Translations under genes and position numbers: made by a program
DNA from: Planctomycetota bacterium
GTDB lineage: Bacteria; Planctomycetota; Phycisphaerae; Phycisphaerales; UBA5793
Assembly (NCBI GenBank): GCA_963205185.1
Contig: CAUJHZ010000063.1
Span: 1-64,000, forward strand
Direction of reading: 5' to 3'
DNA length: 64,000 nucleotides
Notes under the pieces: model-generated
The model's database searches: none
Seen by the model: only the letters and a program-made list of their open reading frames with translations
What the model was told of the DNA's origin: nothing
In this document: positions 3,457 through 29,804 of the stretch, piece after piece
Position numbering within the stretch: the first letter of the stretch is position 1
Layout: each line of letters opens with the position of its first letter

Positions 3457-3478
3457 GATCAAAACGCAGCGGGCGGCT

Positions 3479-4471
3479 TCAGTGCACGCCCTGGTCGGCG
3501 AGCCAGCGTTCGGCGTCGATGGCGGCGCGGCAGCCCATGCCTGCCGCTGTGATCGCCTGCCGGTACACCGCGTCCGCCACGTCGCCCGCCACGAACACGC
3601 CCTCGATGTTGGTGTTCGAGCGGTGCGCAACGGGCATGAGCACATAGCCCTTGTCGTCGAGCGCGATGCCCGAGCCTTTGAGGAACTTCGTCGCCGGCGT
3701 GTGGCCGATGGCGATGAACAGGCCCTTGACGTCAAGTTCGCGCTTGGCGCCGGTGCGCGTGTCGCGCAGGACGATGCCGCTGATCACCTCGTCGCCGAGC
3801 ACATCGACGACCTGCGAGTGCCACTGCACCTCCACCTTGGGGCTCTCGAGCACGCGCTGCTGCATGGTCTTGCTGGCGCGGAACTCGCCGCGGCGGTGGA
3901 TCACGTGCACCTTGCGGGCGAACTTGGTCAGGTACGAGGTCTCTTCCATGGCCGTGTCACCGCCGCCGACCACGGCGAGCACCTGGTCGCGAAACGCGGG
4001 CAGGGCGCCGTCGCACACGGCGCAGGCCGAGACGCCGCCGCCGCTGCGGGCCAGGCGCATCTCATTTTCGAGGCCGAGCCAGTTGGCCACGGCTCCGGTG
4101 GCGAGGATCACGCTGTGCGCCTTGACGGTCGCGCCCGACGAGGTCGTGAGCGTGAACGGCCGCCGGGAGAAGTCGCACGAGTCGATGTCTTCGCCGACGA
4201 TGCGCGTGCCGAAGCGTTCGGCCTGCTTCTGGAATTTGTCCATCATCTCCGGGCCGGTGACGCCGTCGGGGAAGCCGGGATAGTTCTCAACCTCGGTCGT
4301 GAGCATGAGTTGCCCACCGGGCAGGATGGGGCTCGGGTCGGTCTTGGGCACACCGACGTAGCAGATGGGGTTGAGATTGGCGCGGGCGGCATAGATGGCG
4401 GCTGTCCAGCCCGCCGGTCCTGATCCGATGATGACGACCTTTTCGACGGCGTCTGACGCGTGCTGGTTCAT
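3479..4471 (-). CDS. trxB: Thioredoxin reductase
   Basis: The 330-residue length is normal for a low-Mr, NADPH-dependent thioredoxin-disulfide reductase. The FAD-binding motif GSGPAGWTAAIYAA is at residues 16-29, the redox pair CAVC at 150-153 (usually CATC), the NADPH motif GGGDTA with HRRGEFRAS just after it, and the second FAD motif GVFVAGDVAD near the C terminus. It would reduce cytosolic thioredoxin and maintain thiol balance. It is convergent with the upstream prepilin gene, and its start faces away from the next minus-strand gene. Confidence 0.95.
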   Translation of the reverse strand: MNQHASDAVEKVVIIGSGPAGWTAAIYAARANLNPICYVGVPKTDPSPILPGGQLMLTTEVENYPGFPDGVTGPEMMDKFQKQAERFGTRIVGEDIDSCDFSRRPFTLTTSSGATVKAHSVILATGAVANWLGLENEMRLARSGGGVSACAVCDGALPAFRDQVLAVVGGGDTAMEETSYLTKFARKVHVIHRRGEFRASKTMQQRVLESPKVEVQWHSQVVDVLGDEVISGIVLRDTRTGAKRELDVKGLFIAIGHTPATKFLKGSGIALDDKGYVLMPVAHRSNTNIEGVFVAGDVADAVYRQAITAAGMGCRAAIDAERWLADQGVH

Positions 4472-4517
4472 GAGTCCTCAGAATACGTGCGCGGTCGGAG
4501 CGGAGTTCGGATCGCCA

Positions 4518-6107
4518 TCAGCGGCGCCGGGCCTGTCGGGCCATCGCATCGACGTTGGGAAAGAAGACGATTTCGCACTGGTCGCCCTTTTGCGGCTCGG
4601 GCTTGTGCACGAGCGCCTTGCCCAGGTCTTCCGACTGGTCCGGGCCAAAGGAGTACAGCAGCGGCCAGAATTCCTCGAGCGTCACACGGCCCTCGGGTGT
4701 GTCAATCGGGTAACCCTCGTGCGAGAAGCGGGGGTCGGTGTTGCGGATCACGGCGTAGTGCAGTTTCACATCGCCCGATTGATACAGATCCAGCAGCGTC
4801 GTCTCGTAGCTCACGAACGACGGCTGCACCTGGGCGAGGCGGGCTGGAACTTCGCCCTCGCGCATCGCTTCGCCGGGCACGAGTTTGGCTCGCTCGCGCG
4901 TGATGTAAGCGTGGATGCCCGCCGCCGTCGCCGTGCCGTTGAGTTGAGTCGCCAGCGGGATGCGCAGGTCAAAGAGGTTCTGCAGGTCGCGGATGGGCCG
5001 CTTGACCGCCGCGTACTCGAGGTCGTCCAGCTGCTCGAACTCGGAGTCGGGCGCGAGCGAAACGTGCAGCGGCAGGCGCCAGCGGAGTTTCCAGTTGTCC
5101 ACGGCTTCGCGGAGCGCGACTTCGACCTCGCGCTTGGAGCGGTGCTTGTCCACGACCTGCTGCCAGTAGGCTTCGGCCTGGAAGCGCCGCAGCGGCGAAT
5201 CGAGCGAGTCGAACGTGGCCATGACCTCGGGGAACTTGTTTTTGTCCACGCGGTTGTCTGCGCCGTAGATCTGCTCGATCAACTGCTGGCCGATGAGTTC
5301 CTCGCCGGTGGGCAGCTGAATGCGCTCAAGGCCGAGGCGTTCGAGTTCGAGGGCGATTCCGCTGAAATCCTCGATGGTGAGTGTGTCGCGGTAGTACCAC
5401 ATGAAGTCGCGGATCTCGATAAACGAGTCGAGCAGCATGTTCATGCCCAGATGCTTCTCGTCGTAGAAGCGACGATCGCACAACTGCCGGGTCATGCGCG
5501 TCATGGCGAGGATTGCCTCGCAGGCGCCGCTCGTGTCGCCGTTCTCAGCCCGCCGGAACGCCTCGGCGCGAAGCAGCGCCACGAGTTCGCGGTAGCGCGG
5601 CAGGTAGGCCTCTTCGCGGTCAAACAGCAGGTCGTCGCGCAGGTACACCACAAAGTCGCTGATGATCAGGTCGTCATCGACGTTGTGCGTGCCGTACGGC
5701 AGGCCGAAGATCTTGCGCTGCGTCGCATTGGAGCCGCGGCGGTTCTTCTCGAGAATGAGGCCCACCGCCTCCTGCTGTCCGGGTTCGCCCGCCCAGCCGA
5801 TGGCGTCCTGAAAGGTGCTCGACCCGGGATCGAGACTCGTCATCGCCGCTGCAAGCCGCTCGTCGGCGACGTCGATGAGTTCGTGCGCTTCAAAGTAGAT
5901 CTTGTACGCCCGCTCGTCTTCGGAGACCGCCAGGATCGGTGCATTGAGTTGATCGACGAATCCGCGCGGATCGTTGTTCTGCGCCAGAGCGGTCGCGGGC
6001 AGTGCCGCGGCGAGGGCGGCGGCGGACAGGGTCCATGCCGGCAGCAGCCGCGAACGAGCAGCCCGGCGGCGTGGCAGAGGCGAATTCAGTGCGAGGCGAT
6101 CAGGCAT
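4518..6107 (-). CDS. Exported protein of unknown function
   Basis: The 529-residue product has a clear signal peptide: arginine-rich N terminus (RRRAARSR), hydrophobic core and likely cleavage after ATALA, before QNND. The mature protein is hydrophilic and mostly helical in appearance, with no membrane helix and no motif that I recognise. It is transcribed divergently from ald across a 219-base spacer and ends 46 bases upstream of the trxB start, so readthrough into trxB is possible. Confidence 0.75.
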   Translation of the reverse strand: MPDRLALNSPLPRRRAARSRLLPAWTLSAAALAAALPATALAQNNDPRGFVDQLNAPILAVSEDERAYKIYFEAHELIDVADERLAAAMTSLDPGSSTFQDAIGWAGEPGQQEAVGLILEKNRRGSNATQRKIFGLPYGTHNVDDDLIISDFVVYLRDDLLFDREEAYLPRYRELVALLRAEAFRRAENGDTSGACEAILAMTRMTRQLCDRRFYDEKHLGMNMLLDSFIEIRDFMWYYRDTLTIEDFSGIALELERLGLERIQLPTGEELIGQQLIEQIYGADNRVDKNKFPEVMATFDSLDSPLRRFQAEAYWQQVVDKHRSKREVEVALREAVDNWKLRWRLPLHVSLAPDSEFEQLDDLEYAAVKRPIRDLQNLFDLRIPLATQLNGTATAAGIHAYITRERAKLVPGEAMREGEVPARLAQVQPSFVSYETTLLDLYQSGDVKLHYAVIRNTDPRFSHEGYPIDTPEGRVTLEEFWPLLYSFGPDQSEDLGKALVHKPEPQKGDQCEIVFFPNVDAMARQARRR

Positions 6108-6326
6108 GGGCGGCGCTCCGGGAAAGGCCCGATCCGGTCCAAAGCACCTCGCCGGGCCTCAAGTTGCGTGGATTGTCATCCTAGCATAGTCAACCGTTTC
6201 GGGCGGCGCGGAACCCGCGCCGGGCCGTGTGGTCCAATCCAAACCCGCCGCGCGCCGACAATCTTCCGGCGCCGCGCCGAGGTCGAGTCGAATCAGGTTC
6301 TGTTTCCTGCATACGGGAGAATCGCG

Positions 6327-7430
6327 ATGATCGTCGGCTGCCCCAAAGAGATCAAGACCCAGGAATACCGCGTGGGCATGTTGCCGGTCGTCGCGGAGAT
6401 GCTCGCCAGAGCCGGGCACAAGGTGCTCATTGAGCGCGGCGCCGGCCTGGGCAGCGGCTTTGCTGACGAGCTGTACACCGATGCCGGCGCCGCGCTGTGC
6501 GATTCCGCCGCCGAGGTCTTCGCCAAGGCCGACATGATCGTCAAGGTCAAGGAGCCGCAGAAGACCGAACTGGCCATGCTCCGCGATGGGCAGATCCTGT
6601 TCACCTACCTCCACCTTGCCGCCGACAAGGCCCTGACCGAAGGCTGCCTGCGCAGCAGGTGCATCGGCGTCGCCTATGAGACGCTGACCGATGCGCGCGG
6701 CCGGCTGCCGCTGCTCACCCCCATGTCCGAAGTCGCCGGCAAGATGTCCATCCAGGAAGGCGCCAAGTACCTCGAGCGACCCTTCGGCGGGCGCGGCGTA
6801 CTGCTGGGCGGCGTACCCGGCGTCGAGCCCGGCCACGTGCTTGTGCTCGGCGGCGGCGTCGTCGGCACGTGCGCTGCGCGCATGGCCGCGGGCCTGGGCG
6901 CGAAAGTCACCCTGCTGGACATCAACCTCGATCGCCTGCGCGAACTCGATGAATGGATGCCCGCCAACGTCACCTTGCGCTACTCCGACGCTCACACCGT
7001 GCGCGAGTACCTCGCCTGGGCCGATCTCGTCGTCGGCGCGGTGCTCATTCCGGGAGCCGCCGCGCCCAAACTCATCCGCCGCGACGATCTCAAACTCATG
7101 CGCCCCGGCAGCGTGATCGTCGATGTCGCCGTCGATCAGGGCGGCTGCGTGGAGACGACGCACCCGACGACGCACAACGACCCGGTGTTCGAAGTCGAAG
7201 GCGTTGTGCATTATTGCGTGGCCAACATGCCCGGCGCCGTGGCGCGCACGAGCACCATCGGCCTCAACAACGCCACCATGCCCTGGACGCTGCGCCTGGC
7301 CAACGAGGGCCCGATGGCGCTGGCCCGGGCCAGCAAGGGCTTCGCCGATGCCATCAACGTCGATCGCGGCCGGCTCACCAACAAGCCTGTCGCCGATGCC
7401 CACGGCCTGACGTTCGAGCCGCTGCTCTGA
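6327..7430 (+). CDS. ald: Alanine dehydrogenase
   Basis: The ATG at 6327 follows GGGAGA at 6315-6320. The 367-residue product matches the family's usual length of about 370. It begins [18 protein letters not shown], the conserved substrate-binding start, and contains the NAD-binding loop [20 protein letters not shown] and the motif [10 protein letters not shown]. The enzyme converts L-alanine and NAD+ reversibly to pyruvate, ammonia and NADH in the cytosol. A much longer open frame runs in from 4395, but it lies antisense to the exported-protein gene and is not coding. Confidence 0.95.
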
Positions 7431-12581: not shown

Positions 12582-14369
12582 CTACGACGTCCCGTGCGCA
12601 GTGCGCGGCAGGATCTGCTGCGCCCTGGCCAGCGCGGCGTCGAGATCGGTTGCGATGTTGGCAGATCCGATGACGCGATCGAGGCCGGCTTTGGTCAGCA
12701 CTTCCAGCGGCTGCGTGTGAATGCCCGAGAGAATCAGCGCTGTGCCCTGCCGATGGCACTTGTGGTAGAACTCCTCGAGTGCGTGCAGGCCGGTCGCGTC
12801 GATGGCCGGGACGCGGCGCATGCGGAGGATAAACGCGCGCGGCGGCGGCTCGAGCCCCTTGAGCGTGTCCTTCAGGCGATCGGCCACGCCAAAGAAGAAC
12901 GGGCCGTCGATCTCGAACACTTCAACATCGTGAGGGATGCTGCGATTGGCCAGCGCCATCGGATCGCGCTCTTCGGCCAGTTCGCGCTCGTCGATGTGAT
13001 TGGCGAGCATTTCGTCAGTGATCTCGCTGACGTTGGAGACGGTGCTCATGCGCTTCATGAAGAGCATGCTCGCAAGCACCATGCCCACTCCCACGGCGAT
13101 CGTCAGGTCGGCGAAGACGGTCAGGCCGAAGGTGGTAAGCAGCACGAGAATGTCGCTGCGCGGCGCGCGGAGAATGAAGCGGAAGTGATCGATCTCGCTC
13201 ATGTTCCACGCGACCATGATCAGAACCGCCGCGAGCGTGGGCAGCGGGATGAGCTTGGCCAGCGGCGCGAGAAAGAGCATGAACGCCAGCAGCGTGGCGG
13301 CGTGGATCATGCCGGCAAAAGGCGTGCGACCGCCGGACTTCACGTTCGCCGCGGTGCGGGCGATGGCGCCGGTGGCCGGGATGCCAAAGAAGAGCACCGA
13401 GCCGATGTTCGCCAGCCCCTGAGCGACCAGTTCGCAGTCGGACTTGTGCCGCGTGCCCAGCATGCCGTCGGCGACAACCGCGGCGAGCAGCGACTCGATG
13501 CCGGCGAGCACCGCGATGGTCGTGGCGTCGGGAATGAGGTCGCGCACCATCGACCAGTTGAAACTCGGCAGATGCGGCATGGGCAGCATCTTGGGGATGC
13601 CCTGCGTGAAGCGCGAGCCGATCGTCTCGACGCTGCCGCCGAGGGATTTGTCCATCCCCGCAAAGTGCACGACCACCGACGCGAGAATGACCGCGACGAT
13701 GGCGCCGGGCACGCGCGGCCAGAAGCGGCGCATGATGAGGAGCACCGCCATCGAACCCAGCGACACCGCCACCGTCGGCCAGTCGATGGTGTCGATGGAC
13801 GCGGCGATGACCTGCAGTTTGTGCACGAATTCGGGCGGCAGCGGCACCGGCTGGCCGGCGGAGTCGTGCGGCGCGACGCCGAGAAACTCCTTGATCTGCT
13901 GCGAGGCGATGATCACGGCAATGCCGGTCGTGAAGCCGGTCGTCACCGGATAGGGGATGAACTTGATCATCGAGCCGAAGCGAAACAAGCCCATGAGGAT
14001 GAGAATGACCGCCGCCATGAGCGTGGCCGTGGCCAGGCCTTCGTACCCGTGGCGCGCTGCGATGCCGTAGATGATGACGATGAACGCGCCGGTCGGCCCG
14101 CCGATGAGCACCCGCGAGCCGCCGAAGAACGACATGAGAAACCCGGCGACGACGGCGGTGAACAGGCCCATCGCCGGAGGCGTGAGCCAGGGATGGACCG
14201 CCGCGAGTTCGGCCGCGACGTTCTCGGGAATGCTGCTGATGCCAAAGGCCATCGCCAGCGGCAGCGCGATGACGCCCACCGTGATGCCGGCGATGAGATC
14301 GCTGACAAACTTGTGCGCGGTGTAACCTTCGCGGAGGCAGACGACCCACTTGGGAGTCAGAAAGTGCAT
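12582..14369 (-). CDS. SulP-family anion transporter with STAS domain
   Basis: From the second in-frame ATG (MHFLTPKW) the product is 595 residues. It has a polytopic SulP transporter core of about 430 residues, including the signature GGSRVLIGGPTGAF. A C-terminal STAS domain (about residues 450-560) contains VPAIDATGLHALEEF. Such proteins move sulfate, bicarbonate or other anions across the inner membrane; the substrate cannot be told from sequence alone. It is divergent from the zinc-ribbon array and convergent with the LOG gene. Confidence 0.92.
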   Translation of the reverse strand: MHFLTPKWVVCLREGYTAHKFVSDLIAGITVGVIALPLAMAFGISSIPENVAAELAAVHPWLTPPAMGLFTAVVAGFLMSFFGGSRVLIGGPTGAFIVIIYGIAARHGYEGLATATLMAAVILILMGLFRFGSMIKFIPYPVTTGFTTGIAVIIASQQIKEFLGVAPHDSAGQPVPLPPEFVHKLQVIAASIDTIDWPTVAVSLGSMAVLLIMRRFWPRVPGAIVAVILASVVVHFAGMDKSLGGSVETIGSRFTQGIPKMLPMPHLPSFNWSMVRDLIPDATTIAVLAGIESLLAAVVADGMLGTRHKSDCELVAQGLANIGSVLFFGIPATGAIARTAANVKSGGRTPFAGMIHAATLLAFMLFLAPLAKLIPLPTLAAVLIMVAWNMSEIDHFRFILRAPRSDILVLLTTFGLTVFADLTIAVGVGMVLASMLFMKRMSTVSNVSEITDEMLANHIDERELAEERDPMALANRSIPHDVEVFEIDGPFFFGVADRLKDTLKGLEPPPRAFILRMRRVPAIDATGLHALEEFYHKCHRQGTALILSGIHTQPLEVLTKAGLDRVIGSANIATDLDAALARAQQILPRTAHGTS

Positions 14370-14707
14370 GGGTGGTGGCAGGCGCCTCACCGGAGCCGCG
14401 CGGCCCAGGCCCGCGGAAGCGGACGGCGCTCAAGCCGTCCGGAGTCATCGTCTTCGCGAACGCCCGCGAAGCGCGAAGCATGATCGTATACCTCGCCGCA
14501 ATATCGGCAGGATCAGCCTGCAGGATTCGAGCGTTTACCCGACCGCTGCGGCGGCGCGCCAAGGCGCAACCGGGTTGCACGGGCTGGCGAGATAAGTTTG
14601 AAATCGGCACCCATTTCGCCCCCGCCGCGCATCCAGATCGGGTAGACTGGAGTAAGCACAGGCAGCGACTGACCCCACAGCACGGGGCGAGCGGAGGTCG
14701 CGGAACC
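14370..14707. other. Divergent spacer before the zinc-ribbon array
   Basis: This 338-base stretch separates sulP from the first array gene. No conserved short gene or RNA was recognised. It must carry the promoters of both sides. A GGGTAGACT sequence at 14641-14649 resembles an extended -10 but has no clear -35. Confidence 0.4.
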
Positions 14708-16273
14708 ATGGCGGCGGTGATATTTCTCCTCTTTGGCGTCGGCGGACTGCTCGTCGCGGCCGGCTGGTTCGGCCGCCGTCTCGACAATCACCCCTGGTGC
14801 GTCAAATGCGGCCACGACCTGTTCGGCGTGTCGGATTCGACGCGCTGCGCCGAGTGCGGCGCCGATCTGACGCGGCGCCGGGCAACTCGACGCGGTCATT
14901 GGCGCAAGCGCCGCCCGCTCATCGCCTTTGGGGCGCTGCTGCTCGTCGCTTGTGCCGTTCTGACCGCCGGCGAGACATGGGGATGGGCGCAGACAGTCGA
15001 ATGGGAGCAGCACAAACCGATGTGGTGGCTGATGCGCTCGGTCCGGGCCGATGCGCCCGAAACCCGCCGATCGGCGCTGGAGGAACTGCTCCGCCGCGCC
15101 GGGCGCGATGAAGTCAGCGCCGATCGGCTGCTTGAACTCGCGGAGATGGGTCTCGCCTGCCAGAACGACGAAAGTATCGAATGGGAGCCGCTCTGGGGCT
15201 CGATGATCGATGCAGCGATCGATGGCAAACTTCTCTGCGCCGAACAGATCGGCGCCTACTTCGAGAACGCGGTCACATTTGAACTCATGCTGTCGCCTGG
15301 CCGCTTCTCCGTGTTGGAGCGATGGAACGTCAGATACCAGGTCTCTTCCGGTGCTGCGCCCACGGCCCCTTTTGCGTCCAGCCAGTGGGACTCGGTGGAG
15401 TTGAATCTGATTGCTCAGTGGAATCGGGCTGGAGCGGAGGGCCGGTACTATGAGAGCAAGTGCGACGTCTTGAGCGTCTTGCTCGGTGATGTGGCGATTC
15501 CAGAATCGCTCTATCGAGACCCGGTGCATCTGAACTCGATTACGCTGGGTTCGGGTTACGGCTACGCCCAGTCGATCGCGCCATTGATTCCCGTGGTCGT
15601 CCCGCCAGGCGAGTATGAAGTTCGCGCGAGCATCCATATCGAGATCTTCGCGAATCGGTCGGAGAACGAACCTCTACACACGCTGGATCTGCGACTGAGC
15701 GCGCCGGTGACCGTGACACCCGCTGCGCCTGATGCCGTGGAGATCGTGATCGACGAGGAATCGTCACAACTTGTGCGCGAAGCGGCGCACATCACCGTGG
15801 TCGGTTACCGACACCTGCCGACGCACGCAGATCCGCAGCAGGCCGCCCCAGGGTTGATCTGCTCGGTTTCGACTGGGGAGCGCGGCTGGTTCGGATTCGG
15901 AGATGCAGGTGCGAATTGCCCGCTGAATGCCAATCTGGACATCAGTGTATATGCCGGAGGCGTGTACGTTGAGACGATGTCAGTCAGCCTTCCCAACTCA
16001 TCGACCTTCAACCACGTCAGCGCACCGGATCTCACTTCTCTTGACCTGATCGTGCGACCCAGCATCAACAGCCGCTCCACCGGGGTTTTCAACCGCAGGA
16101 CCGGCAAGCCCAAGCCGAGATGGATGGGCCCTGAATTCACTGTTCGCATCGATAACGTGCAGTGGTACGACTCGATCGACGATCCGGCCTGCCCTCCGGA
16201 GCATCGTGAGATGATCCAACGCTTTGTCGAAATGCGGGAACGCAGGGACGGAGTCACCCGGCCGAACCGCTGA
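14708..16273 (+). CDS. Zinc-ribbon membrane protein, array member 1
   Basis: The 521-residue product is the first of six tandem paralogs. Residues 3-20 form a membrane helix, residues 31-50 a zinc ribbon (C31, C34, C47, C50, ending RCAECGADL) and about 70-88 a second membrane helix. The exported part begins VEWEQHKPMWWLMRS, continues with a helical segment containing IEWEPLWGSMIDAA, a beta-rich domain with PPGEYEVRASI, and ends near WMGPEFTV and VQWYDSIDDP. The expected topology is a cytoplasmic zinc ribbon and a large exported domain. The function is unknown. The start is an ATG at 14708; a much longer upstream extension is noncoding. Confidence 0.8.
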   Translation: MAAVIFLLFGVGGLLVAAGWFGRRLDNHPWCVKCGHDLFGVSDSTRCAECGADLTRRRATRRGHWRKRRPLIAFGALLLVACAVLTAGETWGWAQTVEWEQHKPMWWLMRSVRADAPETRRSALEELLRRAGRDEVSADRLLELAEMGLACQNDESIEWEPLWGSMIDAAIDGKLLCAEQIGAYFENAVTFELMLSPGRFSVLERWNVRYQVSSGAAPTAPFASSQWDSVELNLIAQWNRAGAEGRYYESKCDVLSVLLGDVAIPESLYRDPVHLNSITLGSGYGYAQSIAPLIPVVVPPGEYEVRASIHIEIFANRSENEPLHTLDLRLSAPVTVTPAAPDAVEIVIDEESSQLVREAAHITVVGYRHLPTHADPQQAAPGLICSVSTGERGWFGFGDAGANCPLNANLDISVYAGGVYVETMSVSLPNSSTFNHVSAPDLTSLDLIVRPSINSRSTGVFNRRTGKPKPRWMGPEFTVRIDNVQWYDSIDDPACPPEHREMIQRFVEMRERRDGVTRPNR

Positions 16274-16299
16274 CTGCGAACGCGATTCCTTGCTTTGCC

Positions 16300-17763
16300 A
16301 TGAACGCTCCAGCCATCATCCTCCTGATCCTGCTCGGACTTGCTGGCGTGTCAGCATTGCTGCTGGGCCTGCGCGGCAGGCGCGTGGATGATCACCCGCA
16401 CTGCCGGCGCTGCCGGTTCGATCTGTTCGGGCTCGGCGCAGCGGCAGCGCGCTGCCCGGAGTGCGGGGCCGATCTCGCGGGTCGGCGTGCGATCGTTCGA
16501 GGCCTGCGCCGACGCCGGCCGATCGTCGCGGCGCTGGGCGCCATGCTGCTGCTCGCCTGCAGCGCCTGGATCGCGCTCAGCGCCAGCGGCACACTGTCCA
16601 AGATCGATTGGAATCACTACAAGCCGGCGTGGTGGCTGGCAATCGAAGCGCAGTCGGCTGATATGGACAAGTCTGATGCGGCGCTGCACGAACTGGTGGT
16701 TCGACTCGGCAGCAGGAAGCTCAGTCAAGCCCGCATCGACGCCCTCGTCACGACCGCCACCACGCTCTTCGAGTCGCCGCCGGCTCATCTCTCGCGCCAC
16801 TGGGATCGGTTCGTGACCGGCGCCTGGGACGGCGGCTACCTTGATGACGCTGCAGCGTGGCAATACGCCATGGACACCTTCCGGCCGGAGGTGTACCTGG
16901 AGGCGGCCACGTTCGATGGGCGGCCGGCGGGCGTCGTGGGCGCCCGCGTCGTGCCGGCGCGGCGTTACACCGGCGGCTATTACGTCTGCGAACTCGTGGA
17001 GTTGAGCATTGACGGCATGGGCATCGAACTGTCTCCCAGGCGGACCATTGTCGAAAGCCTCGAAAGCCAGCGCCCTCATTTGCTCTCGCCCGCGATCGAC
17101 TTCTCGCCGCACCGGCCGCATCTCGTCGAGGCCACGGTGCAGTGGACGCTGGCGACGCATAACCAGGAAAAGGTGACGCCTTCTCCCGGCAAAGCGGCGG
17201 ATCGATTCAAGTACACGCAGAAGTGCACTTTCAACAGACCGGCTGCGAGTCCGACTGTGGTCGCTCTCGAACTGGTTTCGGATGCTCAGACGCGGGCGGC
17301 GATCGTGGAGGCCACGTCAATCCTGCTGTATGCAGCGCGTGGCCACGGCCGGAGTACCCCGACGATGTACATGGGTCTCTCGCTGGACAATCTCCCGGTT
17401 GCCGTTGATGCTGCTGTCCGACTGGAGGCTCCCGACGGACGCCTGGTCCATTCGACCCACGTCAAGACCCGCGTCCGTGATACATCTGAGACTCCGTATC
17501 GCGGCGGAGTGAGCTTCTACTACGGCGCCGCCGGCCTGATGATTCCCACCGTGGACATCGTGCTGGCCACCGGCTGCCTCAATTATCCGGAGATGGACGG
17601 GCCGAAGGTCTCGCCGATCCGCATGTGGTGCGGCGAGATCCGCTGGTGCGACTTCCCGGTGCAGTGGGTGGAGCGCGACACACCGCTCGTCGCGGACGCG
17701 ATCCGCGCTAACCTCGGCGTCCCGCGCACTCGGCCGGAGCCAACGGCAGCAGGAGGGCGCTGA
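16300..17763 (+). CDS. Zinc-ribbon membrane protein, array member 2
   Basis: The 487-residue paralog keeps the architecture: N-terminal helix, zinc ribbon CRRC followed by RCPECGADL, second helix, then IDWNHYKPAWWLAIEA. It is more diverged downstream: the WEPxWG segment reads LSRHWDRFVTGAWDGG, and the terminal motif is VQWVERDTP rather than WYDSIDDP. It starts 26 bases after member 1 and ends six bases before member 3, consistent with one transcript. Confidence 0.78.
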   Translation: MNAPAIILLILLGLAGVSALLLGLRGRRVDDHPHCRRCRFDLFGLGAAAARCPECGADLAGRRAIVRGLRRRRPIVAALGAMLLLACSAWIALSASGTLSKIDWNHYKPAWWLAIEAQSADMDKSDAALHELVVRLGSRKLSQARIDALVTTATTLFESPPAHLSRHWDRFVTGAWDGGYLDDAAAWQYAMDTFRPEVYLEAATFDGRPAGVVGARVVPARRYTGGYYVCELVELSIDGMGIELSPRRTIVESLESQRPHLLSPAIDFSPHRPHLVEATVQWTLATHNQEKVTPSPGKAADRFKYTQKCTFNRPAASPTVVALELVSDAQTRAAIVEATSILLYAARGHGRSTPTMYMGLSLDNLPVAVDAAVRLEAPDGRLVHSTHVKTRVRDTSETPYRGGVSFYYGAAGLMIPTVDIVLATGCLNYPEMDGPKVSPIRMWCGEIRWCDFPVQWVERDTPLVADAIRANLGVPRTRPEPTAAGGR

Positions 17764-17769
17764 CGGCGC

Positions 17770-19254
17770 ATGTTTGCTTCTGTGATTAACCTCTGCTTCT
17801 CGCTTGCGGCCGTCGGCGCTCTGCTCATCGTGCACGGCCGGCGCGCGCGGCAGCGCCTCGGCGATCGGTGGTGCCGCGCGTGTCGGAGCATTCTCCCTGC
17901 GGAACGCCTCGCCGAGGCGAAGTGCGGGAGCTGCGGCGGCGATCTTTCGGCAATTGTCGCGGTTGGAGTCGGAAGGAGAAGGCGGCGACCGGGGCTGATC
18001 GCGCTCGGATCGCTGCTGCTCTGGGCGGCGCTGTCGGTCGTGCTGGCGCGCGGCATTGACTGGCTCGAAGCGGTTGACTGGCAGGTGCACAAGCCGCAGT
18101 TCGTGCTGTTGAGCGAGGCCAGGTCAACAGATGCCGCCGCTTCGCTCTCAGCGATCAACGAACTGCTTCGGCGCGAGCAGGCGGGTCTGCTGTCGAGCGA
18201 TCGACGCAGCGAACTGATCGATCTGATTCTCGGACGGGTGCTCCCGACGGATGCTCAAACCACGATCCGATGGCTCCCGCTTGTCGAGCAAGAGTGGCTT
18301 GCCGGGCGGCTCAGCCGGGAACACAGCCTCCAACTCGCAAAATATGTCACCAGCCTGGCAGGTCTTGTGCACAGTCGCGATGCGCTCCGTCAAGGCACAT
18401 TCATTCGCTTCACACTCAACCCGTCGCAGCGCGAGCGACTGGCCGAATCAACGATTTTCGTCAAAATCGAGCCGCTTGAAGTGACTCTCGACGGCGAACC
18501 GGTCGCTTCTGAAATCGACGAGTCTGACGGCCCGGCAGTCATCGCCCCGGGGATGCAGCACGGCGGCGGCATGCGCGTCCAGTTTCCGCTGATCGCCTCT
18601 CCGGGCGATCACACGCTCGACTCCGCGTGGAAGGTGGAATTCGAGGTCAGCGGTTATCCCGAAACCGCGATGACCTGGATCGAGAAGCACTCTCAGGAGA
18701 TCACCGTTGCGCCGCCGGACGATCGGTCGCGAGAGATCCGCATCGACGTCGAATCGTCGCAAGCCATGCGCGCCGCGACGCGGGTTGATCTGGTCGGCGT
18801 GCGCGGACTGCATCCCGATACCGGTGAAGATGTCATCATTGGCGTCATCGACCCTCAACCGGCCGAACTGCAGTTCGAGCCGGACTACGAAGTGTGGTAC
18901 GGCGGCGAACTCGTGCAGCAGTCCACGCAGGGTCGGATGCTCTTTGTCTGCATCCCACTTGGCAATCGCACCCGCGACGCATCACTCCGCATTCTGATGC
19001 GCTCGCGGGCCGTGCGCGTGCCTGACTTCGTGTCGCCCCGGTTCAAACCGGACCTGCGGGCGATCTGGTATGGTCCGGCGATTCTGATTGAGCCGGAGCC
19101 GGTCGAATGGTTTGACTCGCTCGACGACCCGCGAATTGCTGAGACGATTCGCAGGCGGCGCTGGGAGTCAGTCATCCGCCGGCTGCAGGCGCCTGTGGTG
19201 ACCGAACGCAAGGGCAGCCACTGGACGGATCCCGAAGGGTGGGACGAGCGATGA
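17770..19254 (+). CDS. Zinc-ribbon membrane protein, array member 3
   Basis: The 494-residue paralog has the N-terminal helix, a modified ribbon (CRAC, then CGSCGGDL, so all four cysteines remain) and a second helix. The post-membrane motif has lost its tryptophans: VDWQVHKPQFVLL. The exported part retains IRWLPLVEQEWLAGRL, SPGDHTLDSAWKVEF, WYGPAILI and VEWFDSLDDP. Its TGA overlaps the ATG of member 4 by four bases, so the two are translationally coupled. Confidence 0.78.
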   Translation: MFASVINLCFSLAAVGALLIVHGRRARQRLGDRWCRACRSILPAERLAEAKCGSCGGDLSAIVAVGVGRRRRRPGLIALGSLLLWAALSVVLARGIDWLEAVDWQVHKPQFVLLSEARSTDAAASLSAINELLRREQAGLLSSDRRSELIDLILGRVLPTDAQTTIRWLPLVEQEWLAGRLSREHSLQLAKYVTSLAGLVHSRDALRQGTFIRFTLNPSQRERLAESTIFVKIEPLEVTLDGEPVASEIDESDGPAVIAPGMQHGGGMRVQFPLIASPGDHTLDSAWKVEFEVSGYPETAMTWIEKHSQEITVAPPDDRSREIRIDVESSQAMRAATRVDLVGVRGLHPDTGEDVIIGVIDPQPAELQFEPDYEVWYGGELVQQSTQGRMLFVCIPLGNRTRDASLRILMRSRAVRVPDFVSPRFKPDLRAIWYGPAILIEPEPVEWFDSLDDPRIAETIRRRRWESVIRRLQAPVVTERKGSHWTDPEGWDER

Positions 19255-20804
19255 TCAGCGAGGCGCAGTTCATTCTGGGCGGCGCGGCGGCTTCTGGTCT
19301 GCTAATCGCGGCGGCAATGCGCGGCGGCAAGACGCCCGGACGGAAATGGTGCGCTCGCTGCCGCTACAGCCTCGATGGCGCCGCCGTCGATTCGCAGCGG
19401 TGTCCCGAATGCGGGTCAAGTCTCCGCGCGTATGACGCGGTGGTGTCTCGCAATCGCGCGCCTCGGCCGCGCCTGCTCAGGCTCGGCTTGGTGGTGCTGG
19501 CGATCACCGCAATCACGCTGGGTGTGCGCCTCGTCCAGCGCATTGATCGCGTCAACTGGACCGCTCACAAGCCCGTTGCATGGCTGGCGTTTCGCGCCGG
19601 CTCCGGGCGCATCGCGGTTGCTCAGGCCGCTCTGGGGGAGCTGAGCCGCCGAGCAGATAGCGGCGGCATCAGCGATGAAGCCCTGGCCGAACTGGCGCGT
19701 CGTGGCCTGGCCTTACAGGCGGACGCGGCCGCTGAGTGGGAGCCGCTCTGGGGGACGTTCATCGAGCGGGGCATCACCCGATCGCTGTTGACCGATGACG
19801 AGCGCCGGGAATACCTGCAGCGGTGTCTGGAGTACTCGATGGCGCTGCAGCACTCGGGACACCGCCAGGGCGTTTCCTTCGGTCCGCAGCGCGACCAGGA
19901 ACTCGAAGCACGACGGCGCAGCCGCGAGCCGCTCGACGTGGCGAGGCACGATCTGATGGATGTCGAGTTTATCGTGAGTCCGGAGCGATTCGCACAGCGG
20001 TCCCGGCTGGCTCTCGATGTGCGTTGTCTGAGCGCGACCATCGGCGATTGGGCGTGTCCCGACTTCCCGGTCCAGCGACCCTCAGCCTCAGTCATCAGCA
20101 GTTCGATCTTCCGCAGTCCCATGCGAGCGAGGCGGATGTTCTGGATTCCGATCGCGGTCGAGCCGGGTCGATACGAGGTGACGCTGCGTTGGGAAGTTCA
20201 GGTGCGGCTTGAGGACGAGCCGCCCGAGACGGCGATCACCGAGGTCTTCGACTTGCGGGACGCCGTGGTCGTGAGCGAGCCCCGGGAAGGATCCGTGCCG
20301 ATCGAAACGGATGCCGCGGCTACGGAAGTGCTTCGCAGCGCCTTCGCCGCGAGCGCTCTGGGCTTTCGGTCCTACCAACTCACGCAGCGTCGCAAAGATG
20401 TCGTGTCGATCGTCTACTTTCGGTTCGACTGCGGTCCTCACCAGCGGCTCAAGCCTGAAGAGCCTCTTGCTCCATTCAATGGATCGATCGATGTGGAGAT
20501 ATCGAGTCACGGCGAGCAGTTGCGCCGAGTCGGAGCGCATCTTCCGGCGGGGTGGGTGTCGTTTCTGGTGGATGATGATCGTTTGGCGTCGGTCGACGTC
20601 GAGGTTCACTACAGCAGGACGAGCACCTCGCTGGGCGTGGGCACGGGTCTCGGTTTCGGCCCTCCGCAACAGATTCCGCAGCCATACTGGATGGGCCCGC
20701 CCTTCGAAGTCCGTGATGTGCCAGTCACATGGTTCAATACGATTGATGACGTGGATCTGAGCGAAGACGAACTCGAATCGATACAGCGCGCCGAACCGAA
20801 TTAG
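19251..20804 (+). CDS. Zinc-ribbon membrane protein, array member 4
   Basis: The start is ATG 19251 in an ATGA overlap with member 3. The 517-residue product has an N-terminal helix, ribbon CARC with RCPECGSSL, second helix, VNWTAHKPVAWLAFRA, AEWEPLWGTFIERG, EPGRYEVTLRWEVQV, WMGPPFEV and the C-terminal VTWFNTIDDV. It is the longest of the first five members, with an insertion between the WEPLWG segment and the beta domain. The function is unknown. Confidence 0.78.
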   Translation: MISEAQFILGGAAASGLLIAAAMRGGKTPGRKWCARCRYSLDGAAVDSQRCPECGSSLRAYDAVVSRNRAPRPRLLRLGLVVLAITAITLGVRLVQRIDRVNWTAHKPVAWLAFRAGSGRIAVAQAALGELSRRADSGGISDEALAELARRGLALQADAAAEWEPLWGTFIERGITRSLLTDDERREYLQRCLEYSMALQHSGHRQGVSFGPQRDQELEARRRSREPLDVARHDLMDVEFIVSPERFAQRSRLALDVRCLSATIGDWACPDFPVQRPSASVISSSIFRSPMRARRMFWIPIAVEPGRYEVTLRWEVQVRLEDEPPETAITEVFDLRDAVVVSEPREGSVPIETDAAATEVLRSAFAASALGFRSYQLTQRRKDVVSIVYFRFDCGPHQRLKPEEPLAPFNGSIDVEISSHGEQLRRVGAHLPAGWVSFLVDDDRLASVDVEVHYSRTSTSLGVGTGLGFGPPQQIPQPYWMGPPFEVRDVPVTWFNTIDDVDLSEDELESIQRAEPN

Positions 20805-20841
20805 CCGCGATTGCTCCTCTGTGTCCCGCTGAACAAGACCC

Positions 20842-22281
20842 ATGCCCGACTTCCTCACCATTCTCTTCATCGGTCTGGCGGCGCTGGGGGGCTGGCTGCT
20901 CGCCATCGGCTGGCGCGGCAGGCGCGTGGACAACCATCCGTGGTGCCGCAAATGCCGCCGCGACCTGCAGAGCGTCTGGCCCGGCGCGGCGAAGTGCCCG
21001 GAATGCGGCGTCGATCTCGAACGCATCGACGCCGTCGAACTCGGCCAGCGCGCCCGCCGCCCGGTGCTGGCGGCGCTCGGGGCGCTCATCCTGCTCTGCT
21101 GGGCCGGCTGGCTCGGCATGGGACTCTGGCGATCCGTCAAAACCGTCAACTGGTCCGACCACAAGCCCGACTGGTGGCTCATGCGCGAGGCGCACTCGAG
21201 CGACGCCGAGACGGCCGCCGCCGCGCTCAAGACTCTCAGGGCGCGCATGGCGAATGACGAACTGAGCGAGGCCACCATCGCCCGCCTCGTGCAGCATGCA
21301 TTGCAGATGCAGGCGGACGACTCGACGAATTGGGAACCCTTCTTCGGCCAACTCATCGAAGATGCGTGGATCGACGGCGCGCTCACGCCCGAACAGTGCC
21401 TCGCGTTCGCCCAGCGCAGCGCCTTGTTCGCGTTCGCGCCGGCATCGGAGGTCGTGCGGCAGTGGGATCTGAGTTCAGTCAAGCTCGAGTGCATCGACAC
21501 GCGAACCGGCGGAGGCGAACTCTTCTACACCATCTCTCCTTCATCGCTCACGATCGGCGAGCTTGACATTCCCTTCGACCCGAGCGAGAGCAAGGAGATG
21601 CGCGTATCGCCCCGGCCGGGACGGCTGGACTTCTCTCTGCTGCTTCCCGTCGCGGCGGCGCCCGGCGAATACGAGGTGCGCAGCACGTGGCGCGTGCAGG
21701 CGCAACCCGGCAAAGCCCCAGGCGCTGCGGCGACGTGGGACATCGAGCTGGCCGCGCCGATCAAGGTGCTGCCGCCCGATGCTGATGCGCCGGTGCTGGT
21801 CATCGGCCCGGATGCCGATGAGCGGCTTCTCGCCTGCTTCCGTTTCGAGGCGATCGGTTTTCGCCTCAGTCCGTTCAGCGACGGGCGCGCTCAGGCTGAC
21901 GTGGCGGTGCTCGGCCGGACGAGCGTCTTTCCGTTCAGCGCCGAAGTGGCGATCGCCGGCCCCCGACCTATCACCCAGCGCGCATCGAACATGCGGTTCA
22001 TGGTCGGGCAGTCGTATCGCGGCGTGATCGTCGTCCCCCGCCTCTCCGACAAAATAGAACAGGTCGAGTTGACCCTCGCGCCGAACATCGGACGCGGGCG
22101 CAGCGCCGAGTCCTGGCAATTGCAGCAACTCTGGTACGGCCCGCCGCTGTCAATGGGCCCGATTGCAGTGACGTGGTACGACTCGATTGATGATCCGAAT
22201 CTGCCCGAGGACCTGCGCCAGCGCTGCATGGAAAGCGGCTGGCAGCCGGTGACGCCAGACCCCACCGAGCCGAGCCAATGA
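20842..22281 (+). CDS. Zinc-ribbon membrane protein, array member 5
   Basis: The 479-residue product is the closest relative of member 6. It begins MPDFLTILFIGLAALGGWLL, then WRGRRVDNHPWC, the ribbon (CRKC, KCPECGVDL), a second helix, VNWSDHKPDWWLMREA, NWEPFFGQLIEDAW, APGEYEVRSTWRV, WYGPPLSM and VTWYDSIDDPNLPEDLRQR. This copy is the best reference for the family motifs. A palindrome at 22291-22316 follows its stop. Confidence 0.8.
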   Translation: MPDFLTILFIGLAALGGWLLAIGWRGRRVDNHPWCRKCRRDLQSVWPGAAKCPECGVDLERIDAVELGQRARRPVLAALGALILLCWAGWLGMGLWRSVKTVNWSDHKPDWWLMREAHSSDAETAAAALKTLRARMANDELSEATIARLVQHALQMQADDSTNWEPFFGQLIEDAWIDGALTPEQCLAFAQRSALFAFAPASEVVRQWDLSSVKLECIDTRTGGGELFYTISPSSLTIGELDIPFDPSESKEMRVSPRPGRLDFSLLLPVAAAPGEYEVRSTWRVQAQPGKAPGAAATWDIELAAPIKVLPPDADAPVLVIGPDADERLLACFRFEAIGFRLSPFSDGRAQADVAVLGRTSVFPFSAEVAIAGPRPITQRASNMRFMVGQSYRGVIVVPRLSDKIEQVELTLAPNIGRGRSAESWQLQQLWYGPPLSMGPIAVTWYDSIDDPNLPEDLRQRCMESGWQPVTPDPTEPSQ

Positions 22282-22290
22282 ACGGGCCGC

Positions 22291-22316
22291 CAAAAAAGTA
22301 CCTGGTACATTTTGTT
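22291..22316. other. Imperfect palindrome with A-rich and T-rich arms
   Basis: CAAAAAAGTACC is followed by TGGTACATTTTGTT, an imperfect palindrome centred on CCTGG. It lies 10 bases after the stop of array member 5. The arms look like a weak bidirectional terminator, but the stem is short. The rest of the 285-base gap before member 6 contains a degenerate hairpin repeat around 22464-22490 (ATGCC, GCAGGCATGACG). Confidence 0.45.
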
Positions 22317-22566
22317 GAGATGGGGACGGACGGGACGCGTTTGCCATGAGTCAGTCATTCACCACCGTCTGGGACCTCGTCGGCGCGCTGGCCATCCTCG
22401 GTGCGACCGAACCCCTCCGCGAGTCACGCGATAGGCCATCCTTCCTGTGCACACTCGACTCGATGCCCTCTTGCGCAGGCATGACGATCGAGTGAGTCGC
22501 TGCCCTTCGCCGCCACGGGCGCGCGGCGGCGATAGTATCGAGACGAGTGATCCGACCGGCGAATCC

Positions 22567-24087
22567 ATGCTCGATCTCCTGACCATACTGTTTGTCTTCC
22601 TCACGCTGCTCGGTCTCGCGCTGTTCACGCGCGGCTGGCGGGGCCGGCGACTGGACAACCATCCCTGGTGCCGGGCGTGCCGGTTCAATCTGCAGGGACG
22701 CTGGCCGGGCGCGAATCGGTGTCCCGAATGCGGCGCCTCGCTGGAAACCATTGGCGCAGTCGAAGTCGGACAGCGCCGGCGGCGCTGGATGCTTTCCGCC
22801 ATCGGCCTGCTCCTGCTCATCGGATGCGGCGTCTGGTTGAGCCGAAGCATCGTCCAGACGGTTGGCCCGGTGGATTGGATGCAATACAAGCCGGACTGGT
22901 GGATCGTGCGGAACGCGCATTCGGCCGATGACGGCACAGCCGACGCGGCGCTGGCGGAACTCGTCAAGCGCATCGACGCTGGTGAACTCAGCAGCGCGCG
23001 CCTGGCCGCCCTTACCGCCGACGGGCTGGAACTGCAGGCGGATGAAAGCGCCGCATGGCGCGCCGGCTGGGGGGATGTAATCGAAGCAGCGTGGAAGAAC
23101 GGTTCACTTTCATCTGAGCAGATTCTCAAGTACGCGCAGCATGCGGTGGACATCCAGATGGTGGCCGAAGCGCCGAAGGTGCGGCGATGGGAGATCGCTC
23201 GCGCCGGGCTGCAGCCGACGCTGCTCCGCACGGGTAGCGGCGACCTGACACTTCAATTGTCGATCGTGGATCAGTCGTTTGGCGGCATCGAACTTCGCGC
23301 CAATCCCGATGAGGGCGCGCTGTTCACCACACTGCGCGCGACTACCAATGCGCTGATGGCCACAACATTCGCTGTGCTGCCCGAGCCGGGCGAGCGCGAA
23401 TTGAACATCACCTGGAGCGCGACGCTCGCGCCGCGCACCCAGTCATCCATGGTCAGGCCGCTCACGGTGCCGTCGCCGGCGACTTGGGACATGCCGCTCG
23501 CGACGACAATCACCGTGCTCCCGCCCGCGGATGGCGCCGCAGAACTCGTGACCGATGAGGCAGTGACCGCAGCTCTGCGAGAAAGCATTGAAGTGCAGGC
23601 CATCGGTCTGCGCGTGCCACCTCCGGTCATGGGCACGCCGAGCGGCCGATCCGTCGGCGGGCGCATTGTCGTGCTCGTCACCTGGCGGAACGTGCCGATC
23701 GCGGCTCAACTGCAACTCGTGACGCGGCATTCCGGAATGCCATCTGGGAGCAGACAGGTGCCGTTGAACCTGCAGCGAGGCTCGTCAATGCAGGTGCGGC
23801 TGTTCATCCATCCTCACCCCGATGACGAGCCGCAGTACATAACCGCTCAGTTCACAGCCGATGTCAACAAGGCCACCGGTCGAATGTTCCCTCAGCAGCA
23901 CTCAGATCAGACTTGGTACGGCCGGCCCATCGAATTCAGCGACATTCCTGTAACCTGGTATGACACGGCCGACGATCCGCAAGTGCCGGCCGATTTGCGC
24001 CCGATTCTGACTCAGCCGCAGGGTGGAGGTCCACTGCCCGGCACATTTGAACGCGGAACGATACGGCGCAGAGCGGATGGGCCGTAG
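22567..24087 (+). CDS. Zinc-ribbon membrane protein, array member 6
   Basis: ATG 22567 is chosen because the paralogs begin the same way (MLDLLTILFVFLTLLG); an upstream ATG at 22447 reads through repeat sequence. The 506-residue product has the helix, WRGRRLDNHPWC, the ribbon (CRAC, RCPECGASL), a second helix, VDWMQYKPDWWIVRNA, AWRAGWGDVIEAAW, EPGERELNITWSA, WYGRPIEF and VTWYDTADDPQVPADLRP. A 285-base gap separates it from member 5, so it may be transcribed separately. Confidence 0.8.
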   Translation: MLDLLTILFVFLTLLGLALFTRGWRGRRLDNHPWCRACRFNLQGRWPGANRCPECGASLETIGAVEVGQRRRRWMLSAIGLLLLIGCGVWLSRSIVQTVGPVDWMQYKPDWWIVRNAHSADDGTADAALAELVKRIDAGELSSARLAALTADGLELQADESAAWRAGWGDVIEAAWKNGSLSSEQILKYAQHAVDIQMVAEAPKVRRWEIARAGLQPTLLRTGSGDLTLQLSIVDQSFGGIELRANPDEGALFTTLRATTNALMATTFAVLPEPGERELNITWSATLAPRTQSSMVRPLTVPSPATWDMPLATTITVLPPADGAAELVTDEAVTAALRESIEVQAIGLRVPPPVMGTPSGRSVGGRIVVLVTWRNVPIAAQLQLVTRHSGMPSGSRQVPLNLQRGSSMQVRLFIHPHPDDEPQYITAQFTADVNKATGRMFPQQHSDQTWYGRPIEFSDIPVTWYDTADDPQVPADLRPILTQPQGGGPLPGTFERGTIRRRADGP

Positions 24088-24156: not shown

Positions 24157-25272
<1,116 letters not shown>

Positions 25273-25450
25273 CGGCACAAGGATAGCGCACGATCGGCCG
25301 GCGATGGGCGGGCGCGGCGAGACGAGGGGGGATGCTCACGGTGGCATGGGCAGCACAAAACGCCTACCCTTGCGGCCCGACGCGGCGTGTGGCTGCGGCG
25401 GGGTTTTTCGGCCTCTCGGCCGCCTGTCCGGCTTCGGTTGGGCCTCGCGC

Positions 25451-27759: not shown

Positions 27760-28857
27760 CTACTCCCCGATAAACTCCGCGAGGCTCTGGCGGCCGGCGA
27801 CGGTGATCGTGATATCCGGCGAGATGAGTTCGAGTTGTCCGCCGTCGCGAACGATGGCCAGGTGGGTGCTCGTGTGGCCGAGGATCAGATCGGATGCGGC
27901 AGCGCCGGTCGAGTCGCCGCGCAGCAGGAGGCTGCGCTGCTGATCCACCTGCGAAGCGATGCAGTTGGTCATCGAAGCGGCCGTGAACAGAGCCGCGATC
28001 GCGAAGCCGCACAGCACCAGCGTCAGCGCGCGGAGCCAGAGCATCCAGCGCAGGCGCACCGCCACGAGCAGCCAGACCACCGCGGCCGCCAGCGCGATGA
28101 GGTCGACCCCGGCGGTGATGCGCACCGACTCATGCCACGGCGCGAAAGCCTCGGCCGTCCACGGCATCACTTCTCCCAGCGCCGCCTGCGAGCGCGCGAT
28201 GACCCAGACGATCTGAGCGATGCTCACGAGCGCACACACCACCAGCCCCAGCGCCGCCGCAACGCGTGCGGTCGGCGAAGGTTCCGCGACGTCGCCGCTC
28301 TCATCGATCGATCGATTGCCGATGAGCGCCAGCGTCAACGCGCCGGCGCCGGTGACGACGAGCAGCATGGCGAGCATGAGCGAAAGCGTGTCGGCCAGTC
28401 CAGCTTCGAAGATGCGCAGCGGGGCGGCGAGGATGAGTTGCACCCCGTCAGTCAGGCTCGAGCCAAACTGCCTCTGCAGGTCGGGCACGCCGACGCTCTC
28501 GGCAAAGCCCTGGCGATAGCCGATGAGTCCCGCGAGCGGCACGGTGACGAGGGCGGCAGCAACGATCATGAACGTGCGCAGCCATGCGGCCAGCTCGATC
28601 ACCACCGGCGCGGGTTCGCCGGTCTGCGTCGGCGGAGGCGGGGCCTTGCCATCAGGGGCGGGGCGCGACCAGATGTAAACGCGCATCGGCGTGGCGGGCC
28701 GGCTGCCGCGCCGGATGCGCACCGCCGGACGCGGAGTCGTCGAAGCCGCATCGTTGGTTCGCTGAGGGTTCAAGCGCAGGGCTCGCTCATTGCTGCTGGT
28801 CGCATTGCTCCGATCCTTTCGCCCCGCGGAAGCGCGAGGTTCAGGCGAATTGCTCAA
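27760..28857 (-). CDS. Polytopic membrane protein of unknown function
   Basis: The frame has about 365 residues from TTG 28857, which overlaps the previous stop as TTGA; ATG 28686 (MRVYIWSRP) is an alternative start. The first 90 residues are polar and proline-rich, followed by four to five hydrophobic segments and a short polar tail. No domain was recognised. Its overlap with the upstream zinc-ribbon gene suggests a two-gene operon. Confidence 0.65.
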   Translation of the reverse strand: MSNSPEPRASAGRKDRSNATSSNERALRLNPQRTNDAASTTPRPAVRIRRGSRPATPMRVYIWSRPAPDGKAPPPPTQTGEPAPVVIELAAWLRTFMIVAAALVTVPLAGLIGYRQGFAESVGVPDLQRQFGSSLTDGVQLILAAPLRIFEAGLADTLSLMLAMLLVVTGAGALTLALIGNRSIDESGDVAEPSPTARVAAALGLVVCALVSIAQIVWVIARSQAALGEVMPWTAEAFAPWHESVRITAGVDLIALAAAVVWLLVAVRLRWMLWLRALTLVLCGFAIAALFTAASMTNCIASQVDQQRSLLLRGDSTGAAASDLILGHTSTHLAIVRDGGQLELISPDITITVAGRQSLAEFIGE

Positions 28858-29804
28858 CCGCCGCCGGATTCATCCGCGGGCTGCTCAGCCGGCCCGACGC
28901 CTTCGCTGGGCGGCTCGTTGCCGGTCGTCTGGCCGGCGCCAGAGGCCGGACCCGGCGCCGCGTCACGGTTCGCCCCCGACGAGCCGTCAATGCCCGGAAC
29001 GGCGAACGGCAGCGAGATCGCGCCCGTCCACGCGAGCACCCACAACAGCACCACGGCCGCGATCAGAACCGTCACCACGCCGACGCCCGCCTTGATCATT
29101 CTCTGGCGCCGCTCGCGGCGGAGGCGTTCGACGGTCAGTTGGCCGGGGGTGAGCTGCTCCTTGACGATGCGGCGGCGGCGCGGCTGGCGCGGCACGCCGA
29201 GGTGGTCGGTCGAATCCATTGCCTCATCAGCCGCATCCGCCAGCGCCGAGCGGGCCGCCTCGCCCGACTCGGCCTGCGAGGCGGCTTCGACTGCCGCCCG
29301 CAGTCGGTCGTAGCCGACGGAGGCGAGCGGGTCCTTCACGCCCTCGTCGGCTGGCGGAATCTTTCCTGCCGCGATCTTTTCGAGATCGCGCACCGGCGCC
29401 AGGCCGAGCACCTGTCGCTCGTCTTCTTCGGTGAACATCGCCCCGCAGAACTCGCAGCACACGTCGGTGCGGCCGACGCGCTCGCCGCACGAGAAGCACA
29501 CGCCCATGAGGTGCGACAGGCCCTGCACCTGGTCGGCGCGCTTCCAGAACTGTTGCGTGGTGGGGCCGCGCACGATGGTGGCCGGTCCCACCCTGCCGCG
29601 TTCAATCATGCGCACGAGCACGTCGTAGCAGCAGCCGGGACGGAAGGGTTGGGCCTCGTCACGGATGAACCACGGGCCCATGGCGTTCTGGGTGGCCTGA
29701 CGGCTGAGCGGCTCGAAGAGGCCGCCGCAAACGTCGCAGCGCGTGGCGCCGGTCTGTGAGTGGCCGCAGTACGGACAGATGACTTCGGGCTGGGAATCGC
29801 TCAT
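28854..29804 (-). CDS. Zinc-ribbon protein with GYF-like domain and membrane anchor
   Basis: The 316-residue product begins with a zinc ribbon (CPYCG and CDVCGG at residues 10-27). A GYF_2-like module (about 40-100) starts GPWFIRDEAQPF and contains GRVGPATIVRGPT. A second CxxC pair set follows (CFSCG and CEFCG). After a charged linker one membrane helix occurs near residues 240-265, then a short glycine/proline-rich tail. GYF-like modules usually bind proline-rich peptides, and the downstream partner has a proline-rich N terminus, so a complex is possible. The function is unknown. Confidence 0.75.
   Translation of the reverse strand: MSDSQPEVICPYCGHSQTGATRCDVCGGLFEPLSRQATQNAMGPWFIRDEAQPFRPGCCYDVLVRMIERGRVGPATIVRGPTTQQFWKRADQVQGLSHLMGVCFSCGERVGRTDVCCEFCGAMFTEEDERQVLGLAPVRDLEKIAAGKIPPADEGVKDPLASVGYDRLRAAVEAASQAESGEAARSALADAADEAMDSTDHLGVPRQPRRRRIVKEQLTPGQLTVERLRRERRQRMIKAGVGVVTVLIAAVVLLWVLAWTGAISLPFAVPGIDGSSGANRDAAPGPASGAGQTTGNEPPSEGVGPAEQPADESGGG

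Follow-up and report, generated by a model that had tools for sequence, protein, structure and literature searches.

A tandemly expanded, undescribed family of membrane zinc-ribbon proteins in Phycisphaerae, with predicted exported beta-sandwiches related by sequence to receptor-kinase ectodomains of other planctomycetes

The window (the whole 64,000-nucleotide stretch analysed) contains six successive genes encoding proteins of common layout: a transmembrane (TM) helix, a four-cysteine ribbon, a second TM helix and an exported domain. All lie on the plus strand: member 1 (14708-16273, 521 residues), member 2 (16300-17763, 487 residues, its C-terminal half the most divergent of the array), member 3 (17770-19254, 494 residues), member 4 (19251-20804, 517 residues, with an ATGA overlap with member 3), member 5 (20842-22281, 479 residues, the protein used for structure modelling) and member 6 (22567-24087, 506 residues). 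ORF coordinates and alignment bear out the preliminary description, which had reported six same-strand genes of 479-521 residues sharing one architecture, with short gaps, one ATGA overlap and a longer gap before member 6; the successive gaps are 26, 6, -4, 37 and 285 bases. Because every pair aligns by BLASTP (E ≤1e-12; 23-38% identity full-length, 23-40% over the best segment), the genes are paralogues and not chance look-alikes. To the left lies a divergent SulP-type sulfate permease with a STAS domain (12582-14390, minus strand) and to the right a convergent purM gene (AIR synthase; 24157-25278, minus strand), both assigned by Pfam and both outside the family. The flanks are housekeeping by Pfam: on the left are an amidohydrolase, the permease and two further proteins, one of the arginase family and one LOG-type, with a hut-type gene among the neighbours; on the right are purM, a pair of FabA-like genes and the gene for an acyl carrier protein. 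A promoter scan found no sigma-70-like site and was uninformative. Elsewhere in the window, 28854-29804 (minus strand) encodes a protein whose first half contains two CxxC knuckle pairs and which has a TM helix at its C-terminus; Pfam gives nothing for it at E 0.001.

Synteny of the SulP-array-purM locus extends to the congeners compared, namely G003, Phycisphaerales bacterium UBA5793, the MAG PLA1 and planctomycete PLA5. The SulP neighbour is syntenic with G003, UBA5793 and PLA5, and purM with G003, UBA5793, PLA1 and a sister genus (G005). Of the seven array genes in G003, six are orthologous one-to-one to those in the window (79-91% identity, against 94-97% for flanking proteins); the orthologue of member 1 (L071:14728-16290) is 81% identical. 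UBA5793 has three array genes, 52-54% identical to members 2 and 5, and a purM at 94%; member 2 has orthologues at 84% in G003 and 52% in UBA5793. PLA1, labelled Vicinamibacteraceae in what is probably a mislabel, has one family gene, which adjoins purM, and the PLA5 contig stops within a member-5-like gene directly after SulP. In the sister genus a single family gene lies 21 bases from purM, convergent as in the window.

The 285-base interval before member 6 (22282-22566, unstranded) marks where a seventh member was deleted, since both the start and the 3' flank of the seventh G003 gene, located at the same place (L071:7213-8655), remain there. By BLASTN, 22346-22405 corresponds to the first 60 bases of the lost gene (93%) and 22449-22561 to its 3' flank (77%), while an inverted 23-base fragment of that gene (22403-22425, 96%) suggests a complex deletion. 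In a quick tree of 89 homologues the purM-side loci form one group (SH-aLRT 93), and the arrays of other genera form separate lineage-specific groups; at L074, L077, L079, L109, L117, L119, L122, L123 and L124 each array falls on one side of a branch. Judged from this tree, the arrays in other lineages arose separately. It is well supported that the array in the window expanded in place, as the preliminary description had proposed, next to purM and with members both gained and lost: a single gene occupies the purM-side spot in the sister genus, the congeners have 1, 3, 6 and 7, these loci form one clade, and a scar marks a loss. Copy number thus varies between related genomes, as that description had suggested checking. 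The neighbours are conserved at the purM locus within the genus and sister genus and not between genera elsewhere. Outside the purM locus no conserved partner genes were found, only unrelated genes each common to three or four loci.

Between the window and its G003 orthologues, the array has a dN/dS of 0.18-0.30, its flanking genes one of 0.04-0.11. The array evolves fast, yet under purifying selection. Diversifying selection is not upheld, as values well below 1 reveal no positive selection. The same values, together with the identity of the congener orthologues, mark the array ORFs as real genes. A drifting family with little present function, its size changed by unequal recombination, would account for the copy number of 1 to 8, the deletion scar and the rapid divergence relative to the flanks. 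Such drift is nevertheless very unlikely given these dN/dS values, the intact frames and cysteines of every member, and the retention of the family across a bacterial class.

All six members have two hydrophobic helices and the four ribbon cysteines (C35, C38, C52 and C55 in member-5 numbering). The ribbon loop between the helices contains 12-14 K/R against 4-7 D/E, giving it a net charge between about +5 and +10, and because of this excess the positive-inside rule predicts a cytoplasmic ribbon, in support of the placement first proposed. A basic cytoplasmic ribbon might bind nucleic acid, the ribosome or RNA polymerase and in this way respond to outside events by tethering DNA, RNA or transcription to the membrane. 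The loop charge is consistent with this, and there is a weak likeness of CPxCG ribbons to ribosomal eL37 and to zinc fingers (a PDB sequence search with the ribbon returned CPECG-type zinc fingers and eL37 only). However, the likeness is confined to short CPECG knuckles under every curated cut-off, and topology by itself predicts basic residues next to TM helices, so that such a role appears distinctly improbable. Generic zinc-ribbon families (DZR, Zn_ribbon_3 and HVO_2753) have CxxC...CPxCG knuckles in common with the array ribbon but match below curated cut-offs, the best Pfam zinc-ribbon score being 14.8 bits against the 27.3 required for DZR and NCBIfam giving none over cut-off; unlike them, the array ribbon lies between two TM helices and is lineage-specific. 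A zinc- or redox-responsive switch akin to zinc anti-sigma factors, with the ribbon as sensor, would likewise be membrane-bound with zinc-type cysteines in the cytoplasm. It is very improbable, since the array has CxxC...CxxC and not HxxxCxxC (absent by inspection) and no sigma factor occurs among the flanks (SulP, LOG-type, hut-type, purM, FabA-like and ACP genes).

Structure prediction, one of the checks proposed at the outset, yields a helical domain and two beta-sandwiches for the exported part. The AlphaFold2 model of member 5, built on a 38-sequence alignment, has a mean pLDDT of 87.3 (87.0 for the second sandwich modelled alone) and comprises TM1 (2-25), the ribbon (26-73, sitting between two strands), TM2 (74-101), the helical domain (102-193) and beta-sandwiches D1 (194-313) and D2 (314-450). 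Sequence and model together thus delineate a predicted anatomy in which a four-cysteine ribbon, cytoplasmic by charge, lies between two TM helices and is followed by an exported helical domain and two beta-sandwiches. The sandwiches are modelled as Ig-like/transglutaminase-beta-like, a kind typical of binding modules. Against the PDB, D1 reaches Z 6.5-8.4, mostly with rmsd 2.6-4 Å over about 100-110 residues, and D2 reaches Z up to 6.5; with Z at most 8.4, these matches are generic and within the range of common arrangements. Likeness to Ig-like folds (transglutaminase beta-sandwich, arrestin, Spo0M, RbmA) lies in the sandwich arrangement, whereas sequence identity of about 3-14% and middling Z suggest that the arrangement is a common one and does not amount to membership. 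In a viral structure library the matches were generic Ig-like and tail proteins, and viral contigs gave one match, of 24 residues. A CcmK-like D2 (weak PDB sequence match, E 0.01-0.02) was rejected because the D2 model is a beta-sandwich and not a BMC fold. A relationship of the helical domain to HEAT repeats drew no support from a comparison with one HEAT-bearing TM-ribbon-TM protein (hhalign probability 0.1%), and the Pfam scan gave no HEAT model.

The five conserved marks initially described in the exported domain are right in outline but overstated, several being missing from members 2, 3 and 4. The first is spaced W-x2-[HY]-K-P, not W-x3, and the WW that follows is present in four of the six members. 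W-x-P-x-WG is exact in members 1 and 4 but not in the other four; the PGEYEV strand is exact in members 1 and 5 and varied in 3, 4 and 6; W[MY]G occurs in five members, member 2 having WCG; and three members have the terminal W[YF][DN]S-x-DDP exactly, with near forms in 4 and 6. Member 2 lacks both the PGEYEV and the DDP marks. Among homologues some marks are kept and others are not, the terminal one being unseen in the sequences aligned from other genera. Over the whole class, conservation in the exported part is highest at R135, P109, G275, P364, E131 and W431 (member-5 numbering), and the conserved exported residues (W, P, G, R, E, L) are of a structural kind, with no evident catalytic set among them.

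A profile of the exported domain matches at least 68 of 298 Phycisphaerae genomes and, outside the class, at least one genome in a 392-genome phylum sample, both counts being lower bounds with five to six candidates scored per genome. By these searches the family is almost confined to Phycisphaerae. A four-cysteine ribbon lies upstream in 93 of the 99 ORFs that include the start of the exported domain, nearly all with two TM helices, and four of the six exceptions (L085) have an altered, still cysteine-bearing ribbon. All 38 aligned homologues keep the four cysteines, and across them mean pairwise identity is 0.45-0.49 in the ribbon, about 0.28 in the helical domain and 0.16-0.20 in the sandwiches (D1 about 0.16, D2 about 0.19). 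Scans of Pfam and NCBIfam gave no family above cut-off for the array proteins, PADLOC anti-phage defence models no match at E 0.1, and Pkinase (PF00069) no match in any of the six. The original description of the exported domain as undescribed is therefore sustained, no well-characterised family having been found by profile, and a literature search found no account of such proteins in Phycisphaerae or planctomycetes. The array thus represents a real, undescribed and class-wide planctomycete protein family, as defined by profile, with repeated tandem expansion.

The ribbon extends beyond this family. In the window's own genome (4.55 Mb), matches to a DNA pattern for CxxCxYDLx[GA] number 54, against none for a reversed-pattern control; three other Phycisphaerales have 12-15, and more than 100 other planctomycete genomes have essentially none. 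Two placements are seen in the own genome: N-terminal between two TM helices, with a tail of 400-520 residues that is in some cases made of HEAT repeats, and in the final 20-45 residues, behind a C-terminal TM helix, also in tandem runs. Both should be cytoplasmic and beside the membrane. Proteins of the first kind whose exported part matches HEAT repeats lie at L020, L027, L022 and L017, the last below the Pfam cut-off. Runs of the second kind lie at G000:C49:5100-8400 (L037), G000:C7:70100-71300 (L035) and 182600-184200 (L023), G000:C76:155100-157200 (L038), G000:C72:2600-4500 (L026) and G000:C37:72200-73000 (L034); their proteins are about 100-310 residues long, with a CxxCxYDLxG...CPECG-type ribbon after the TM helix, and have no Pfam domain besides weak ribbon matches. 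A broader, rather unlikely proposal is that the Phycisphaerales ribbon (CxxCx[YF]DLxG...CPECG) is a shared cytoplasmic docking tag on dozens of membrane proteins, borne in an N-terminal hairpin or at the very C-terminus, through which many exported sensors would address one inside partner, standing in for the large transmembrane kinase families of other planctomycetes.

The sole out-of-class match of the exported profile is a Ser/Thr kinase of G322 (L127; Pkinase E 3e-43) in which the kinase is followed by a TM helix and then D1-D2. The match covers profile positions 131-346 (E 5e-11) and scores 43.7 bits, while 2000 shuffles reach 11.3 at best; the kinase half and reversed ORFs give no match, and hhalign relates this ectodomain to the family with 95% probability. 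It leads in turn to two further kinases of similar layout in other families, at L134 (G312; Pkinase E 1e-41) and L139 (G452; a Pkinase match, and E 1e-20 to a kinase-ectodomain profile), which tie to the array family mainly via L127, direct hhalign comparison giving E 6e-4 and 3e-3 at low probability. The L139 protein (3304-6399, minus strand) is a multi-TM kinase of 1032 residues with an N-terminal CxxC...CxxC ribbon and a related ectodomain. The match of the kinase relatives leaves out the helical domain. At the level of sequence, then, the D1-D2 pair and the ectodomain of transmembrane Ser/Thr kinases from other planctomycetes are homologous. Like these PknB-like receptor kinases of Planctomycetota, which include the related proteins of G322, G312 and G452, the array proteins combine a cytoplasmic module, a TM segment and a C-terminal exported domain; they differ in having the four-cysteine ribbon between two TM helices instead of the kinase, and an added helical domain. 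A homologous outside part is thus joined to a kinase in some planctomycetes and to the ribbon in Phycisphaerae, where no kinase fusion of the exported domain was seen. Pkinase matches number 40-88 in G322, G312 and G452 against 11-17 in the family-bearing Phycisphaerales tested. Phycisphaera has been reported to have no or very few transmembrane Ser/Thr kinases (PMC11032199). The ribbon may have taken over the kinase's job.

These relationships bear on whether the array proteins are instead structural or adhesive components of the envelope, their exported domains connecting adjacent proteins, the wall or the matrix while the ribbon acts as no more than a stable zinc-held turn that fixes the hairpin. 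Foldseek matches of the paired beta-sandwiches include the matrix protein RbmA and pilus chaperones, HEAT repeats on other TM-ribbon-TM proteins of the genome are scaffold-like too, and no signalling genes lie nearby. On the other hand, the ribbon is conserved beyond its cysteines more than a passive turn requires, its YDL form is found 54 times in the genome, and related beta domains sit on kinases. An envelope scaffold is possible, though on the unlikely side.

The reading we tentatively prefer, with confidence that stops a little short of halfway, is a tandem family of receptor-like inner-membrane proteins, for which the recurrence of D1-D2 as a kinase ectodomain is the best evidence. In the periplasm each exported domain would bind a ligand, a polymer or a partner, several specificities would come from the array, and the near-constant cytoplasmic ribbon would dock on a common inside partner, holding the place taken by the kinase in the kinase-fused relatives. 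The constant inside and variable outside, the architecture kept in 93 of 99 ORFs and the reuse of the ribbon on many membrane proteins are consistent with this reading, and a repertoire of binders fits repeated, separate tandem expansion; binding-type sandwiches and conserved residues of a structural kind agree with it as well. Against it stand the absence of a conserved neighbour outside the purM locus, the lack of positive selection, the generic fold matches, the largely indirect tie of L134 and L139 to the family, a kinase match that leaves out the helical domain, and the lack of any kinase fusion seen within Phycisphaerae. The earlier suggestion of diversification for different ligands or partners is accordingly only partly retained: the contrast in identity between ribbon and D1/D2 and the presence of D1-D2 on kinases elsewhere speak for it, whereas the selection data do not. 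The six proteins probably form a group of surface receptors or binders that are diverging from one another.

The array family is thus real and undescribed, while ligand binding and ribbon docking are functions that it may have. Describing it ties the family to receptor kinases through sequence homology and brings to light a cytoplasmic zinc-ribbon module, spread over the whole genome, in bacteria with a cell envelope whose biology is little understood. Should the ribbon prove to be a shared docking tag, a single pull-down could reveal the hub of an entire signalling or envelope network.
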